DNA from: Nitriliruptoraceae bacterium
GTDB taxonomy: Bacteria > Actinomycetota > Nitriliruptoria > Nitriliruptorales > Nitriliruptoraceae
NCBI GenBank assembly: GCA_007130695.1
Contig: SLRZ01000180.1
Coordinates: 1-33,333 of the forward strand
Reading direction: 5' to 3'
DNA length: 33,333 bases
Made by a program: the position numbers and the translations under genes. The notes under the pieces are model-generated. The model worked only from the letters and a program-made list of their open reading frames with translations. It was not told the DNA's origin and made no database searches. Of the stretch, positions 8,198 through 16,371 are shown one piece after another (within the stretch, counting starts at the first letter, position 1; each line of letters begins with the position of its first letter).

Positions 8198-8395
8198 CTA
8201 CTGGCCGCCCTTCTGGACGTAGTTCTTGACGAATTCCTCGGCGTTCTCCTCGAGGACGTCGTCGATCTCGTCGAGCAGTTCGTCGACGTCGTCGAGCAGT
8301 TCGCGATCGTCCGCGGCGGCCTCGGTCTCCGCCTGCTCCTCGGGTTCCTGCTCCCGTGAGGATCCGCCCTTGCGGGTCTGTCCGCCCTCGCTCAT
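8198..8395 (-). CDS. pup: Prokaryotic ubiquitin-like protein Pup
   Basis: 65 aa MSEGGQTRKGGSSREQEPEEQAETEAAADDRELLDDVDELLDEIDDVLEENAEEFVKNYVQKGGQ; C-terminal GGQ; ATG at 8395. Confidence 0.96.
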   Translation of the reverse strand: MSEGGQTRKGGSSREQEPEEQAETEAAADDRELLDDVDELLDEIDDVLEENAEEFVKNYVQKGGQ

Positions 8396-8471: not shown

Positions 8472-9953
8472 TCAATCCCCGCCGGCCAGCCGATCCAGCA
8501 GTTGGGCCGCGTCGTCGACGGAGTCCAGCAGTTCACCCACGTGGGCTCTGGTCCCACGGCCGGGTTCGAGCATCGGCACGCGGCGCAGCGACTCACCGCC
8601 GGTGTCGAAGATCAGCGCGTCCCAGCCCGCGGCCACGACCTGGTCGCGGAAGCGACGCAGGCACTCGCCCCGGAACCAGGCCCGGGTGTCCTCGGGCGCA
8701 TGGTCGATGGCGTGCAGGATCTCGGACTCGGCGACCAGGCGCTCCACCCGCCCCCGCGAGGCCAGGCGCTGGTAGAGGCCCTTGTCCTGACGCACGTCGT
8801 GGTATTGCAGGTCGACCATCTTCAGCCGGTCGCTGTCCCAGCCCAGATCGTGCCGCGCGCGGTAGCTCTCCAGCAGGTCGAGCTTGGTGGCCCAGTCGAC
8901 CTGCCCCGCCAGCGCGCGGGGGTCCGCTTCGGCGGTGGTCAGCACCGCCTCCCAGCGCGAGAGCACGTCGGCGGTGACCGGATCGAGGTCGCGGTCCTTG
9001 CAGTAGCGCTTCGCGGCTTCGAGATAGAGGCCCTGGATCTCCAGCGCCGTCATCCGCCGCCCGTCCTCCAACAGCAGCGGGACCCGGCACGTCAGGTCGT
9101 GGCTGACGGTGTGGAAGGCCTCCACCGGGCGTGCGAGCACCGGCAGGTCGCCGAGTTCGCCGTCCTCGACGAGGTCGAGCACGAGCAACATCGTGCCGAC
9201 CTTGAGGAACGTCGCGACCTCGCACAGGTTCGCGTCGCCGTTGATCACGTGCAGCCGCCGGTAGGCCTCGGGGTCGGCGTGGGGCTCGTCGCGGGTGTTC
9301 ATCAACGGCCGCTTGAGCGTGGTCTCCAGCCCGACCTCGACCTCGAAGAAGTCGGCCCGCTGCGTGAGCTGGAAGTGCACGTCGTCAGCGAGTTCGCTGC
9401 CGATCCGTCCGGCACCGGTGAACACCGGGCGGGTGACGAAGAACGGCAGCAGCTCCCGTGTCAGCCGGCCGAAGGGGATCTCGCGGGGCACCAGGTAGTT
9501 CTCGTGGGTGCCGTAGGCCGCGCCCTTCCCGTCGGTGTTGTTCTTGTGGATGAGCACCCGGCCACCGTCGGGCAGGGTGGCCTCGGCGCGCCGGGCCGCG
9601 TCCTCGAGGATGCGCTCGCCCGCCTTGTCCCAGATCACCAGGTCGCGGGCGTTGGAGCACTCCGGGCTCGAGTACTCCGGGTGCGCGTGGTCGACGTAGA
9701 AGCGCGCCCCGTTGGTCAGCACGGTGTTGGCGAGCCCGAGTTCGTCGTCCGACGGCGGCTCGTGGGCGTCCGGCACCTCGTAGCCGCGCGCGTCACGCAG
9801 CGGATGTTCGTCGGTGTGGTCCCAGCGCACGTCGCCGGCGTGCCGGTAGGCGCCGACCACCATCGAGGACGCCAGCACCGGGTTGACCTCGGTCGGGCCG
9901 GTGACCGTGATGCCGTACTCGGTCTCGACCCCGACGAACTTCGGCGTGGTCAT
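8472..9953 (-). CDS. dop: Pup deamidase/depupylase Dop
   Basis: VGVETEYGITVTGPTEVNPVLASSMVV; NGARFYVDHAHPEYSSPE; NNTDGKGAAYGTHENYL; EVEVGLETTLKRPLMNTRDEPHAD; DTRAWFRGECLRRF. Confidence 0.96.
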   Translation of the reverse strand: MTTPKFVGVETEYGITVTGPTEVNPVLASSMVVGAYRHAGDVRWDHTDEHPLRDARGYEVPDAHEPPSDDELGLANTVLTNGARFYVDHAHPEYSSPECSNARDLVIWDKAGERILEDAARRAEATLPDGGRVLIHKNNTDGKGAAYGTHENYLVPREIPFGRLTRELLPFFVTRPVFTGAGRIGSELADDVHFQLTQRADFFEVEVGLETTLKRPLMNTRDEPHADPEAYRRLHVINGDANLCEVATFLKVGTMLLVLDLVEDGELGDLPVLARPVEAFHTVSHDLTCRVPLLLEDGRRMTALEIQGLYLEAAKRYCKDRDLDPVTADVLSRWEAVLTTAEADPRALAGQVDWATKLDLLESYRARHDLGWDSDRLKMVDLQYHDVRQDKGLYQRLASRGRVERLVAESEILHAIDHAPEDTRAWFRGECLRRFRDQVVAAGWDALIFDTGGESLRRVPMLEPGRGTRAHVGELLDSVDDAAQLLDRLAGGD

Positions 9954-9999: not shown

Positions 10000-11805
10000 T
10001 CACAGGTACTGCCCCGCGCTGACGTTCTCGATCGAGCGGCCCGGGTGTGGGTCGTCGCCGGTGATCAGGGTGCGCACGTAGACGATCCGCTCCCCCTTCT
10101 TCCCGGAGATCCGAGCCCAGTCGTCGGGGTTGGTGGTGTTGGGCAGGTCCTCGTTCTCGCGGAACTCGTCGCGGATCGCGGTCAGCAGGTCGTCGGTGAC
10201 CAGGCCCTTGCCGCCGTCGTCGATGAAGCGCTTGATGGCGAGCTTCTTCGCGCGGGCGACCACGTTCTCGATCATCGCGCCGGAGTTGAAGTCCTTGAAG
10301 TACAAAATCTCCTTCTCGCCGTTGGCGTAGGTGACCTCGAGGAACTCGTTGTCCGACTCGGAGGCGTACATCTTCTCGACCGTGGCATCGACCATCGAGG
10401 CGACCGCCGCGGCCGCGTCGCCGTCGTGGCGCGCCAGTTCGTCAGGGTGCAGGGGCAGCCGCTCGTGCAGGTAGATCTTGAAGATCTCCCGGGCCGCGTC
10501 CGCACCGGGCCGGTCGACCTTGATCTTCACGTCCAGCCGCCCGGGGCGAAGGATCGCCGGGTCGATCATGTCCTCGCGGTTGGACGCACCGATGACCACG
10601 ACGTCCTTGAGGCTCTCGACCCCGTCGATCTCCGCCAGCAGCTGCGGAACGATCGTGGTCTCCACATCGGAGGACACGCCCGAGCCACGGGTGCGGAACA
10701 GCGACTCCATCTCGTCGAAGAACACGATCACCGGGAAGCCCTCGGCCGCCTTCTCCCGGGCCCGCTGGAAGATGACCCGGATCTGGCGCTCGGTCTCGCC
10801 GACGTACTTGTTCAGCAGCTCCGGGCCCTTGACGTTGAGGAAGTAGCTCTTCACCTCGGTCTGGCCGGTCCGCTCCGCGACCCGCTGCGCGAGCGAGTTC
10901 GCCACCGCCTTGGCGATCATGGTCTTGCCACAGCCCGGCGGGCCGTACAGCAGGATCCCCTTGGGTGCGCGCAGCTCGTGCTCCTCGAACAGCTCGGCGT
11001 GGAGGTAGGGCAGTTCGACGGCGTCGCGGATCGCCTCGACCTGGCCGCCGAGACCACCGATCTGCTCGTAGGTCACATCGGGGACCTGCTCGAGGATGAG
11101 CTGTTCGACCTCCGCCTTGGGGATGCGCTCGATCGCGCTGTTGGACCGCGGATCGACCAGCACCGAGTCCCCCGCCTTGAGCGGCAGATCGCGGAGCGGA
11201 TGGGCGAGATGCACGACCCGCTCGTCGTCGGTGTGCCCGAGCACGAGCAGGCGACCGTCCCCGAGCCGTTCGGAGATCGTCATGATCTCCCCACGGTCCT
11301 CGAATTCGCGCGAGGCGACGACGTTCATGGCCTCGTTGAGCAGGATCTCCTGGCCCGCGTGCAGTTCGTCCGCCGCCACCTCGGGCCCGAGCTGGACCTC
11401 GAGCTTGCGCCCCGACGCCATCACGACGGCCGTGTCGGGCTCCTCACCCGGGGCGAGGTAGGTGCCGTAGGTCTGGGGCGGAGCGGAGAGGCGCTCGACC
11501 TCGTCGCGCAGTTCGGTGAGCTGTTCGCGGGCCTGCCGCAGCGTGTCGGTCAGCTTCGTGTTCTGGTTCTGGGCGGCCTGGAGTTGCCCCTTGGCCTCCA
11601 GCAGCCGTTCCTCGAGGACCCGGATCCGTGTCGGGGCGCTCTCGAGGCGGCGTCGGAGCAGATCCATCTCCTCGCGCAGGTACTTCACCTCCGCGGCGAG
11701 CGCGTCGGGGTCCTCCGGGAGCGGGTCGTCGTGGCCGTCACCCCCGGTCGGCCCGGCAGGCGGGCGGGGGTCGTCCTCGCGTGGTGTCTGATGGGGACCT
11801 GCCAC
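10000..11805 (-). CDS. arc: Proteasome-associated AAA+ ATPase ARC/Mpa
   Basis: N-terminal coiled coil; AAA motifs [15 protein letters not shown] and [19 protein letters not shown]-terminal SAGQYL typical of a proteasome-gating tail. Confidence 0.96.
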
Positions 11806-12256: not shown

Positions 12257-13180
12257 TCACTCCCCCGCGGGGGTCTCCTCCGCGGCGGTCTCGCCCCAGA
12301 CGATCCCCGGACCCGTGTCGGCCTTGCGACGGGGCCGTGGTGGCCCACCCTCCTCACGGCTCGGCACGCGACGTGCCGTGGTGAGGAACGCCGTGTGGGC
12401 GACCATCCGATGGGCCGGGCGGACCGCGAGGCCGTCGACGTCCCAGCCGCGGACCATCGTCTCCGTCGTGCGGACCTGTGAGAAGCGGCCGTCCTCCCAC
12501 AGCCGCTCCGTGGTGCGCATCACCTGCGGCACCGTCGGGGTGTAGGTCACCAGCAACCCGCCGGGCGCCAGCGCGTCACCCACGGCCGGCACGACCAGCC
12601 AGGGCTCGAGGAGGTCGAGCACCACCCGGTGCGCGCGACGCCCGGCGAGCCCCTCGACCACGTCGCCTTCGTGCAGTTCCCAGTTGTCCGGCGGCCCGCC
12701 GTGGAACCGCTCGACGTTGCGTCTGGCCACCCGGGCGTGGTCGTCGCGGTGTTCGAAGGAGACCACCCGCCCCGAGGGCCCGACCGCGGCCAGCAGCGCC
12801 AGCGTCAGCGCCCCGGAGCCGGCACCGGCCTCCACGACCGTGCACCCGGGGCGCACGTCACCCGCGGCGACGATCATCGCCTGGTCCTTGGGATAGACGA
12901 CCTGCGCCCCGCGTTTCATCTTCAGCACGAAGTCCTCACGCGTCGGGCGCAGGACCGTGACCTCCATGTTGCGGTTGGTGCGCACCGTGGTGCCCTCGTC
13001 GCAACCGATGAACGCCTCGTGGGGGACCAGCCCCGCATGGCTGTGCCACTCCCCACCCGACGTGAGCGTCAGCAGGTAGCGACGCCCCTTGCGGTCGGTG
13101 AGCACGACCAGCTCGCCCTCTGCGAGCGGGGCGTCGGTCCCCGGCAGGACCGGCACGCCGTCGTCGGCGGCCCCGCTCAC
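12257..13180 (-). CDS. trmI: tRNA (adenine-N1)-methyltransferase TrmI (m1A58)
   Basis: KRGAQVVYPKDQAMIVAAGDVRPGCTVVEAGAGSGALTLALLAAVGPSGRVVSFEHRDDHARVARRNVERF; GTG start at 13180 overlaps the upstream stop (GTGA). Confidence 0.92.
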   Translation of the reverse strand: MSGAADDGVPVLPGTDAPLAEGELVVLTDRKGRRYLLTLTSGGEWHSHAGLVPHEAFIGCDEGTTVRTNRNMEVTVLRPTREDFVLKMKRGAQVVYPKDQAMIVAAGDVRPGCTVVEAGAGSGALTLALLAAVGPSGRVVSFEHRDDHARVARRNVERFHGGPPDNWELHEGDVVEGLAGRRAHRVVLDLLEPWLVVPAVGDALAPGGLLVTYTPTVPQVMRTTERLWEDGRFSQVRTTETMVRGWDVDGLAVRPAHRMVAHTAFLTTARRVPSREEGGPPRPRRKADTGPGIVWGETAAEETPAGE

Positions 13181-14340
13181 GCCTCCGCCTTCTGGCCCGC
13201 CAGGGGCAGTGTGGCGAGGATGCGCTCGCGCTGTCGGCAGAACGCGCAGATCTCGGTCACGGTGGGCATACCGCACTCCTGGCAGGCCACCAACCGGGGG
13301 CCGTCGTCGGTGGTCTCGGCGAAGTGCTCGGCGTGCCGGTCGAGGAAGCCGAACAGGAACTGGGCCTTGGCGCCCGGCGACCCGCGCTCGAGCACGTTCA
13401 GTGCCTCCTTGAGTTCGTGCCCGGTGTTGCCGTCGACCAGCGGGCACTCCTCCACCACGTAGTCGATCCCGGTCACGACGCAGTAGGCGGCCATCTCCCG
13501 CTCCGAGAGCCGGTACAGCGGCTTGCACTTGCGCACCTGGTTGGCGCCGGTCTCGGGCAGCACCGGCCGCTGGCGGGCCAGGAAGTCGTCGTTCCAGCGC
13601 AGGACGTTGCCGAGCAGGGTGGCCGCCTCGTCGTCGAGGTTGTGTCCGGTCACCATCACGTCGTAGCCCTCGTCGACCGCGACCCGGTTGAACACGTAGC
13701 GTTTGGACAGCCCGCACACCCCGCAGGTGGACCGCGACGAGGCCTGGGAACCGGACGGGGTCGTGTACCCGTACTCCTCCGCCAGATCGACCTCGATCAG
13801 TCGGCCACCGCGAGGTGCAGCCCGCTCGGCCGCGAACTCACGGCAGATCTCCCCGGAGCGTTGGGAGTACCCGCCGATACCCAGTCCGACGTACAGCCCG
13901 TCGGCCCGGTAGCCCATCGACAGCAGGGCGTCCCACAGCGCCAGCGAGTCCTTCCCGCCGGAGACCGCCACCAGGATGCGGTCGGCGTAGGAGAACATCC
14001 GCCCCTCGCTGCCCGCGACGGGACGGTCGATGGCCTTGCGGATCTGCCCCTGGACGTGGTCGGCGAAGTGGGACGGGCACCAGGCCGACCGGTGTCGGGG
14101 CTCCTCGATCGCGGCGGGAGCGCGGCACACGACACAGGTGGGGCCGGCGCCCCCGGAGATCACCGGCCGCACCTCGACCTCGGCGTCGTCGCCGAGCTGG
14201 TGGGACGCGGTGACCAGCTCCCCCTCGTGGATCACCAGCACGGTGTTGGGGTCGAGGTCGAGCTGTGCGAGCACCTGGGCGACCGTCAGTGGCCCGTCGA
14301 GCTGTTCGACACGTTCGGGGTTGCGCAGTCGGACACGCAT
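13177..14340 (-). CDS. ttuA: TtuA-family tRNA 2-thiolation protein with N-terminal ThiS/MoaD/TtuB-like sulfur-carrier domain
   Basis: Residues 1-64 MRVRLRNPERVEQLDGPLTVAQVLAQLDLDPNTVLVIHEGELVTASHQLGDDAEVEVRPVISGG; then CVVC...CPSH zinc motif, PP-loop VSGGKDSLALWDAL, STCGVCGLSKRY and VEECP cysteines, TGHNLDDEAATLLGNVL, C-terminal CQEC..CAFC zinc motif. Confidence 0.9.
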   Translation of the reverse strand: MRVRLRNPERVEQLDGPLTVAQVLAQLDLDPNTVLVIHEGELVTASHQLGDDAEVEVRPVISGGAGPTCVVCRAPAAIEEPRHRSAWCPSHFADHVQGQIRKAIDRPVAGSEGRMFSYADRILVAVSGGKDSLALWDALLSMGYRADGLYVGLGIGGYSQRSGEICREFAAERAAPRGGRLIEVDLAEEYGYTTPSGSQASSRSTCGVCGLSKRYVFNRVAVDEGYDVMVTGHNLDDEAATLLGNVLRWNDDFLARQRPVLPETGANQVRKCKPLYRLSEREMAAYCVVTGIDYVVEECPLVDGNTGHELKEALNVLERGSPGAKAQFLFGFLDRHAEHFAETTDDGPRLVACQECGMPTVTEICAFCRQRERILATLPLAGQKAEA

Positions 14341-14436: not shown

Positions 14437-16371
14437 CTACCCAACCGGTCCTTCCGCGCTCATGTCCCGGCTCCGCGCGGCCTCGTGGCCGGGGGGCGAG
14501 CGCAGCGCATCCGGGAGCACCAGGGTGACCTCGGTCCCCCGGTCGGGGACGGAGACGGGTTCGATGGTCGCACCCAGCGTCTCGGCCAGCGCGGCCACCA
14601 GGGCGAGCCCCACCCCCAGGCCGCGGGTCTCGCGGCGCAGGACGTCACCTCCACGGTGGAAGGCCTCGAAGGCCAGCGAGAGGTCGCCGGGTTCCATACC
14701 GGGCCCGCGGTCGACCACCGTCAGGCGGACGTCGCGACCGATCGTGTCCACCCGCAGCTCGACCGGTTCGTGTGCGGGAGAGAACTTGGCCGCGTTGACC
14801 AGCAGGTGCCGCAGAATCTGTTCCACGCTCGCCACGTCGAGTTCGACGACGGGCTCTCCGGGGATCTGCACCGCCACGTCGCGACCATCGAGCTGTCCGT
14901 GCAACCCGGTGACGAGCCGTGTCACCAACGGGACCAGCGGCACCGGTTCCGGTGAGGGGGCCGCGGAGCGCCCCATGCGCTGGGCGGTCAGCTGCAACAG
15001 GTCCTCGACCACGCGACGAAGGTCGTCGGCGTTGGTCTCGAGCCGTGCCACCAGGGTGCGCCGCCGGGTGTCGTCGAGCTCATCCCAACGCTGCACCAGC
15101 AGGGAGCTCACGCCGCAGACCGACGTCAACGGGGTGCGCATCTCGTGCGACACGGTCGACAGGACATCGTCGCGGATGCGCTCGACCTCCGCGACCCGAC
15201 GCGCCGCCTCGACCTCGCGGATCGTCAGCAGCTCCCGCGCCTTGAGCCGGGCACGGTCGAGGGCCACGTCGAGGTGCACGGCGAGCACGCCGACGGCGTC
15301 GAGGTCACGGGCGCCGAACAGCAGGGCGTAGGGGTCGACCCGGACGACGAAGCACCCGCGCACGGTCGGGGCGACCAGCACGTGCCCGGAGCCGTCGGTC
15401 GCCGCGCGGACCTGCACCTGCCCCGCACTCTCACCGGCGTCCGGGGTCCAGACCGGAGACGCGCCGTCGGGCACGGCGACCACGACCTCGTCGCCGGCGA
15501 ACAGCCACGCCGCGGTGCCGCCCGCGAGCCGGGTGACGTGGGGCAGCAGTTCGCCGGCCAGCCGCTCGGGCTCGTCGATCTCGAACATGCGCCGCTCGGC
15601 GAGGGCCAACTGGTCGCGGTCCCGCCGCGCCCAGTGCCACCGCAGGGCCGCGGGCGGGACGAACCCCAGCAGCAGGAGGCCCACCGTGACCACGGCGAAG
15701 AGAAGGATCCCGGTGAGCGACTCGGCCTGCTGGTCCAGCGCACCCGCCAGGCCAGCGACGGGCAGCAGTGCTCCGAGCCCGGCGACGGCCGCCGCCATGA
15801 GCTGCGACCGTCGGCGGGCCACCGCGGCGGTCGCCCCCCGACCACCGCGCCACAGCCGTATCGCCGCCGTGCCGTGTCCGGCGACCCACAGCGCCAGGAA
15901 GACGGCGAGCCACGCCGAGGCCACCAGCCCGCTGAGGACCTCCAGCACGTACAACAGGGCGCCGGCGACCAGGACAGGCGTGGCCCACAGGGCCAGGCGC
16001 CAGATCCCGCGGGCCACCGGGTCGAACACGTCCGCGAAGCGGGTCACCAGCAGCGGGATCACCGCGAAGGCCGTCGCGGTGAGCAGGAGTACGGGCAGGC
16101 CGACGGCGGCGGGCAGGCCGGGCAGCTGCTCGACGCCGTGCAGGACGGCGGCCAGGGAGTAGACACCCAGCAACTGGGCCAGCTCCGTCGCTCCCGGCTG
16201 GCCGTCACGAACGTGGCGCCGAACGGCGACCGCGAGCAACGTGACGAAACCCGCGGCGGCGACCGCCGTCAGGATGAGATCGATCGCGTCGAGCACGGCG
16301 CCGCCCCTCCCCTGGGCGCCACGCGACGCGGGCACCCCGTCCGGCACCAACGATACGGTGAACCCCCTCAC
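14437..16371 (-). CDS. Multi-TM sensor histidine kinase
   Basis: HisKA VLSTVSHEMRTPLTSVCGVSSLL; HATPase LRHLLVNAAKFSP, DRGPGMEPGD, GLGVGLALVAALAETLG; N-terminal TM helices. Confidence 0.92.
   Translation of the reverse strand: MRGFTVSLVPDGVPASRGAQGRGGAVLDAIDLILTAVAAAGFVTLLAVAVRRHVRDGQPGATELAQLLGVYSLAAVLHGVEQLPGLPAAVGLPVLLLTATAFAVIPLLVTRFADVFDPVARGIWRLALWATPVLVAGALLYVLEVLSGLVASAWLAVFLALWVAGHGTAAIRLWRGGRGATAAVARRRSQLMAAAVAGLGALLPVAGLAGALDQQAESLTGILLFAVVTVGLLLLGFVPPAALRWHWARRDRDQLALAERRMFEIDEPERLAGELLPHVTRLAGGTAAWLFAGDEVVVAVPDGASPVWTPDAGESAGQVQVRAATDGSGHVLVAPTVRGCFVVRVDPYALLFGARDLDAVGVLAVHLDVALDRARLKARELLTIREVEAARRVAEVERIRDDVLSTVSHEMRTPLTSVCGVSSLLVQRWDELDDTRRRTLVARLETNADDLRRVVEDLLQLTAQRMGRSAAPSPEPVPLVPLVTRLVTGLHGQLDGRDVAVQIPGEPVVELDVASVEQILRHLLVNAAKFSPAHEPVELRVDTIGRDVRLTVVDRGPGMEPGDLSLAFEAFHRGGDVLRRETRGLGVGLALVAALAETLGATIEPVSVPDRGTEVTLVLPDALRSPPGHEAARSRDMSAEGPVG

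Follow-up and report, generated by a model that had tools for sequence, protein, structure and literature searches.

A TtuB-like sulfur carrier is fused to the tRNA thiolase TtuA in Nitriliruptoria and is probably released by cleavage after a conserved internal Gly-Gly

Analysis of a 33,333-nucleotide stretch of DNA from a Nitriliruptoraceae bacterium (the window) revealed an open reading frame on the reverse strand (13177-14340, ATG start) that encodes 387 amino acids and combines a sulfur carrier with a tRNA thiolase. A 64-residue TtuB-like beta-grasp domain ending in SGG is followed by a linker of four residues and a complete TtuA. The Gly-Gly of this gene is not the free C-terminus of the encoded protein, as another 323 residues come after it. 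A glycine within a peptide bond has no free carboxylate for adenylation. We call the domain TtuB-like, since its Gly-Gly is internal and processing would be needed. Probably, the TtuB-TtuA precursor is cut after the Gly-Gly, with a JAMM peptidase as the likeliest protease, and the carrier, thiocarboxylated by MoeZ, feeds TtuA for the modification of U54.

The carrier domain comprises residues 1-64 (14149..14340, reverse strand) and ends in RPVISGG. Pfam ThiS (PF02597) matched residues 9-64 with 27 bits in the whole protein and 31.6 bits for the domain alone, above the curated cut-off of 22.5 bits. In a phmmer search against PDB sequences, Thermus TtuB (5ztb_E) was matched over residues 2-64 with E=4e-4. 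Modelled alone with AlphaFold2, the domain reached a mean pLDDT of 92, and the predicted order of strands and helices fits a beta-grasp fold of about 65 residues. The best five PDB matches of this model in Foldseek were all Thermus TtuB chains of 5ZTB and 5GHA (TM 0.87-0.89 on the query), which ranked ahead of Mth1743, MoaD, ThiS and the SAMP proteins.

The remainder of the protein (residues 69-387, 13177..14136 on the reverse strand, stop codon included) was identified as the TtuA tRNA 2-thiolase region by phmmer, NCBIfam NF049949 and Foldseek. Thermus thermophilus TtuA, to which the window enzyme is about 45% identical, was matched over residues 68-374 with E=5e-78 and was closer than NcsA (1e-17) in the same PDB search. 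NF049949 was the best TtuA/NcsA model for the protein (229.9 bits, compared with 101 for the NcsA model); its cut-off of 450 bits, which was not reached, belongs to an equivalog named for Pyrococcus-type TtuA and bears on this equivalog, not on membership of the TtuA family. The first Foldseek match of the full-length model was TtuA of the 5ZTB/5GHA complexes (5ztb_B, TMt 0.90), and TtuB chain 5ztb_E was found as well. The region, read on the reverse strand, contains an N-terminal LIM-type zinc finger (residues 69-92, 14065..14136, PF22082 above cut-off) and the PP-loop ATPase domain (residues 122-298, 13447..13977, PF01171 above cut-off) with an SGGKDS loop (S127-S132, 13945-13962) that is invariant in the fused homologues. 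The Fe-S cluster cysteines C206 and C209 (13714..13725), invariant in 43 fused homologues, are part of CGVCGLSK213, which in the alignment to 5gha_A corresponds to the CxxC...K137 region of Thermus. The third cluster cysteine, C299 in EECP (13444..13446), is likewise invariant and aligns with the EECP cysteine of Thermus TtuA, and the C-terminal zinc finger is represented by the invariant C353, C356, C365 and C368 (13237..13284).

Between the two parts lies the linker AGPT (residues 65-68, 14137..14148, reverse strand), directly followed by C69, the first zinc cysteine. No in-frame ATG, GTG or TTG occurs between the Gly-Gly and C69 of the window gene; the nearest in-frame GTG codons upstream are those of V60 and V57. 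The internal diglycine itself (Gly63-Gly64, 14149..14154, reverse strand) is the putative site of cleavage and activation, as judged from its conservation, its codon changes and the low pLDDT of this segment. The full-length AlphaFold2 model, built with 43 fused homologues, had a mean pLDDT of 90.2, and its sole inner segment with a pLDDT below 50 was residues 61-64, the SGG junction. Such low model confidence would be expected for an exposed and flexible protease site. Pfam, phmmer, AlphaFold2 and Foldseek thus agree with the initial annotation, which had claimed a TtuB-type carrier fused to TtuA. The position of the Gly-Gly, its distance of four residues from the zinc cysteine and the lack of a start codon between them are as it had described, and the TtuA motifs that it had expected are present, with two zinc fingers flanking the PP-loop, three Fe-S cysteines and SGGxDS.

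A TtuA match was found in 46 of the 66 genomes of the window's class, mostly along the full fused length. Among 397 genomes of the phylum there were more fused genes, together with many TtuA matches starting only at about residue 65 with a carrier match adjoining. We read the junctions of 48 fused genes (46 full-length and two cut by contig ends) and of 35 separate pairs; a fusion recurring at this frequency is neither chance nor assembly error. Fused genes occur mostly in the window's class, and the nearest fusions in named genomes belong to Nitriliruptoraceae, Nitriliruptorales, Nitriliruptoria and Actinomycetota, all of them metagenome-assembled. Separate pairs were found in Acidimicrobiia, Ilumatobacteraceae, Nitrospirae/Nitrospirota, Chloroflexi and others. 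On a tree of 81 TtuA sequences, the fused and separate states need eight changes, at least five of which are forced by well-supported branches, and S-G-G stays invariant throughout.

The Gly-Gly, whose conservation the initial annotation had seen as decisive, proved to be strictly maintained in this recurrent fusion: SGG is kept in 48 of 48 fused genes. Over the 46 fused rows of the TtuA tree, the two Gly codons underwent 20 and 18 third-position changes (38 synonymous) and none at positions 1 and 2. Residues just after the Gly-Gly change often, with 5, 13 and 21 changes at residues 65, 66 and 67. Among the fused genes, the pair is written by 12 codon combinations, which points to a constraint on the protein and not to a nucleotide signal. 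The linker is 4-11 residues long in the homologues, and its first residue is small, A or S, in 47 of 48 cases and Q in one, which conforms to the pattern of MoaX-like processed fusions. S-G-G is equally invariant in the separate carriers.

Where carrier and enzyme are separate (35 pairs), the carrier gene is located directly upstream of ttuA, usually overlapping it or tens of bases away. Six of these carriers end exactly at the Gly-Gly, and the other 29 bear a tail of 1-20 residues; the two-residue tail is commonest because the carrier stop overlaps the ttuA start as ATGA or GTGA. In the named genomes, a set that overlaps the fused genes and pairs just described, the carrier ends at the Gly-Gly in 14 cases, beyond it in 52 and is fused in 13. 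The fusion is therefore one extreme of a series that runs from a terminal Gly-Gly through a short and a long tail to Gly-Gly followed by TtuA. Judged from the gene sequences, a masked Gly-Gly appears to be the general state of carriers in this clade, fused or not.

Several loci are listed here as separate observations. In L164, the carrier gene runs about 66 residues past the Gly-Gly to a stop and is followed by ttuA, which may be a frameshift or a stage between a tailed and a fused carrier. In the bin G102, which is 94% complete with 5% contamination and might contain two organisms, TtuB and TtuA occur both as a fusion and as a separate pair (L069 and L104). Adjoining ttuB-ttuA genes are present in Nitrospirae/Nitrospirota, including a Nitrospira (L160, L162, L180, L184, L188, L191, L194 and L197), in spite of the description of s2T54 as specific to thermophiles. 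Three records titled Bifidobacterium breve (L173, L186 and L192) carry Acidimicrobiia-like ttuB-ttuA genes and are apparently misnamed metagenome bins.

An invariant Gly-Gly through repeated fusion, together with tails after it as the rule, fits a cell that routinely cuts after Gly-Gly. We propose that the precursor is cut post-translationally after Gly64, in front of Ala65. The Mec/desampylase-type JAMM metallopeptidase of this genome is the likeliest protease, and the products would be a TtuB carrier with a terminal Gly-Gly and a TtuA whose chain begins with AGPTC. The single MoeZ-type E1-rhodanese would then adenylate and thiocarboxylate the C-terminus of the carrier. The carrier would dock on TtuA, where the [4Fe-4S] cluster and the PP-loop may transfer the sulfur to U54 in the T-loop of the tRNA, close to A58, the presumed methylation site of the co-encoded TrmI. 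The computation shows what the domains are, how they are conserved, how the genes are ordered and that E1 and JAMM are encoded; cleavage, its protease and the product nucleoside are inferred.

The precedent for such processing comes from MoaD-MoaE fusions, as in MoaX of Mycobacterium tuberculosis and DR2607 of Deinococcus radiodurans, in which a ThiS/MoaD-family carrier with an internal Gly-Gly is likewise N-terminal to a sulfur-accepting enzyme. Their activity requires cleavage after the Gly-Gly, by a JAMM peptidase in D. radiodurans (PMC4326299, PMC8832034). The cut in MoaX falls between Gly82 and Ser83 and depends on Gly81 (PMC4326299); DRJAMM cuts the MoaD-MoaE fusion and leaves a C-terminal Gly (PMC8832034). 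In T. thermophilus, deletion of a JAMM homologue led to abnormal conjugates of TtuB and lowered thiouridine by about 50% (PMC3980101). The window protein differs from the MoaD-MoaE fusions in that the partner of the carrier is a tRNA thiolase instead of MoaE, and in that its cleavage is a proposal. The initial annotation had offered two alternatives, cleavage of the precursor or conversion of the domain into a docking module, and had called both mechanistically unusual. Since MoaX and the DRJAMM substrate are cleaved after an internal Gly-Gly, this was overstated, and of the two alternatives cleavage after the Gly-Gly is favoured.

Partners for this route are encoded elsewhere in the genome, which is 89.75% complete. 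There is one clear E1, a 420-residue MoeZ-like protein composed of ThiF and rhodanese parts (L133:3922-5184), and one clear JAMM peptidase (L132:6375-6824, reverse strand; PF14464, 65.5 bits). The latter carries the HSHTHSQAYPSETD motif, and its best NCBIfam match is desampylase, below the cut-off of that model. The JAMM gene shares its contig with a CysO/SAMP1-like carrier (L132:3867-4283, reverse strand) that is encoded beside cysM and continues for 15 residues after VAGG; the Gly-Gly of this carrier would also need trimming. This arrangement of JAMM, carrier and cysteine synthase resembles CysO-Mec-CysM, which is a separate pathway, and the same JAMM may in addition cut the TtuB-TtuA precursor. 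Also encoded are a ThiS ending in QGG, beside thiO and thiG, and a MoaD/CysO-like carrier ending exactly in VAGG. A search for E1 and stand-alone TtuB, which had been suggested with the initial annotation, thus returned the one MoeZ-type E1-rhodanese and no TtuB paralogue in the 89.75% complete genome; the four other ThiS-family matches were ThiS, two CysO/MoaD-like proteins and a MoaD-like protein that is cut off by the end of its contig. This last carrier (L001, G000:C153), near moaA, continues for at least about 30 residues past VAGG to the contig end and is possibly another fusion.

A JAMM peptidase is present in 66 of the 69 TtuA-bearing genomes compared with 167 of the 328 without TtuA, a contrast that is inflated by shared ancestry. 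It is equally present in genomes whose carriers end exactly at the Gly-Gly; its presence therefore does not single out fusions, and it was discarded as an indicator of carriers that are fused or tailed. Most fused genomes have a clear JAMM match, and two, G046 (98% complete) and G074 (94%), have none. In the loci read, neither a JAMM nor an E1 gene was linked to ttuBA.

The main rival to cleavage of the precursor is a fusion that stays uncut, in which the ubiquitin-like domain serves as a docking or regulatory module in a permanent linear counterpart of the conjugate that TtuB and TtuA form in Thermus, and sulfur comes from another carrier or as sulfide on the [4Fe-4S] cluster. We regard this as unlikely. 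Other carriers would be at hand, as the ThiS (QGG) and MoaD/CysO-like (VAGG) proteins of this genome end exactly in Gly-Gly, and T. thermophilus TtuA is modified by TtuB, for example at K137 (PMC3980101), whose equivalent here is the invariant K213. TtuA can also use sulfide in vitro, and some organisms have TtuA without TtuB (PMC7138817), so that a carrier is not strictly required. However, a docking domain has no need of an exact S-G-G, yet 38 synonymous changes stand against no replacement at the Gly codons. The motif is just as invariant in separate carriers, where it is C-terminal or needs trimming to become so, and the interconversion of fusion and separation suggests that both states are equivalent.

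It is quite improbable that the fusion works as the enzyme in its uncut form, with the Gly-Gly, which a tether of four residues joins to the zinc finger, placed at the [4Fe-4S] cluster as an internal ligand or gate and sulfur arriving without a carrier thiocarboxylate. If so, the strictly conserved diglycine would serve a function for which no free C-terminus is needed.

Translation might also start inside the fused gene and give TtuA on its own alongside the fusion, which would then be a side effect of the loss of stop codons. An in-frame ATG just before the first cysteine is kept in three fused genes (L068, L069 and L071), separate pairs typically overlap as ATGA or GTGA, and the window gene offers the in-frame GTG codons of V57 and V60. 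Against this, 45 of the 48 fused genes lack a start codon between the Gly-Gly and the first cysteine; with an in-frame start in the linker of only three, an internal start for TtuA was rejected. Moreover, no carrier with an exposed terminal Gly-Gly would arise in this way, yet the Gly-Gly is the conserved feature, and we consider this explanation very improbable. Release of the carrier by ribosomal frameshifting or termination just after the Gly-Gly, with no proteolysis involved, is more remote: an off-frame stop does follow 3-16 codons past the Gly-Gly in some fused genes, but across the fused genes this distance ranges from 3 to more than 600 codons and the Gly codons, in their 12 forms, contain no conserved slippery sequence, so that a programmed frameshift sharing either element among fused genes was dismissed. 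Finally, an assembly or gene-calling artefact, for which the fragmentation of the window's assembly (288 contigs, 89.75% complete) might speak, has a negligible probability, as open fused frames in 48 genes, some of them in the single-contig genomes G040, G047 and G003, rule it out.

The gene next to ttuBA bears on where the sulfur would go. Its GTG start overlaps the ttuBA stop (GTGA), and it encodes the tRNA m1A58 methyltransferase TrmI (12257..13180, reverse strand; PF08704 and PF14801 above cut-offs). trmI lies directly 3' of ttuA on the same strand and within 1 kb in 139 of the 145 loci with room. In Thermus, 2-thiolation at position 54 is promoted by m1A58 (PMC6313347), which together with this linkage supports position 54 as the target. 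The window enzyme belongs to the TtuA family, and its putative action on tRNA position 54 is suggested by one observation, the linkage to trmI. Searches of the 89.75% complete genome yielded neither TrmFO nor a close TrmA; its one PF05958 protein, considered as T54 methyltransferase, scores best as 23S RlmD. The product nucleoside, as far as this incomplete genome tells, is probably s2U54 rather than s2T54. To our knowledge, s2T54 is described as thermophile-specific; the fused gene predicts 2-thiolation of U54 in actinobacteria despite that description.

The closest known system is TtuA-TtuB of T. thermophilus, which synthesizes m5s2U54 and resembles the window protein in sequence and fold of both domains (TM about 0.88 for TtuB). 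Its TtuA has the same Fe-S cysteines, PP-loop, zinc fingers and the lysine corresponding to K213. The two proteins are separate in Thermus, whereas in the window they form one chain with the carrier Gly-Gly inside; with no TrmFO seen in the 89.75% complete genome, the product may lack the 5-methyl group. Fusions of ubiquitin-like proteins, namely ThiS-ThiG, MoaD-MoaE and ThiS-sulfite reductase, have been described, and release of the carrier by JAB/JAMM peptidases was proposed for them (Iyer et al. 2006, PMC1779556). As in the window, a carrier is joined to its acceptor enzyme there, and the parts of that paper available to us do not mention a fusion to a PP-loop tRNA thiolase. A literature search, mainly outside subscription journals, returned no report of a TtuB-TtuA fusion. 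A carrier-acceptor fusion released by cleavage is a kind already known; its tRNA-thiolation instance, the recurrence of this fusion and the tails on stand-alone carriers look new. tRNA thiolation would thereby be added to the few pathways whose ubiquitin-like sulfur carrier is synthesized in pro-protein form, joined to the acceptor enzyme. Most TtuB carriers of the clade, fused or not, appear to be made with residues past the Gly-Gly, so that tRNA thiolation would always depend on a protease that unmasks the carrier, a step that may be regulated.

Two further features of the window were recorded. A sensor histidine kinase gene (14437-16371, reverse strand) is located upstream of ttuBA on the same strand, and no match to it was seen near ttuA in the relatives' loci read. 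On the strand of ttuBA-trmI there are also genes for Pup, ending in GGQ (8198-8395), the depupylase/deamidase Dop (8472-9953) and the proteasomal ATPase ARC (10000-11805), all reverse, which places two differently masked Gly-Gly-bearing protein tags within about 6 kb.
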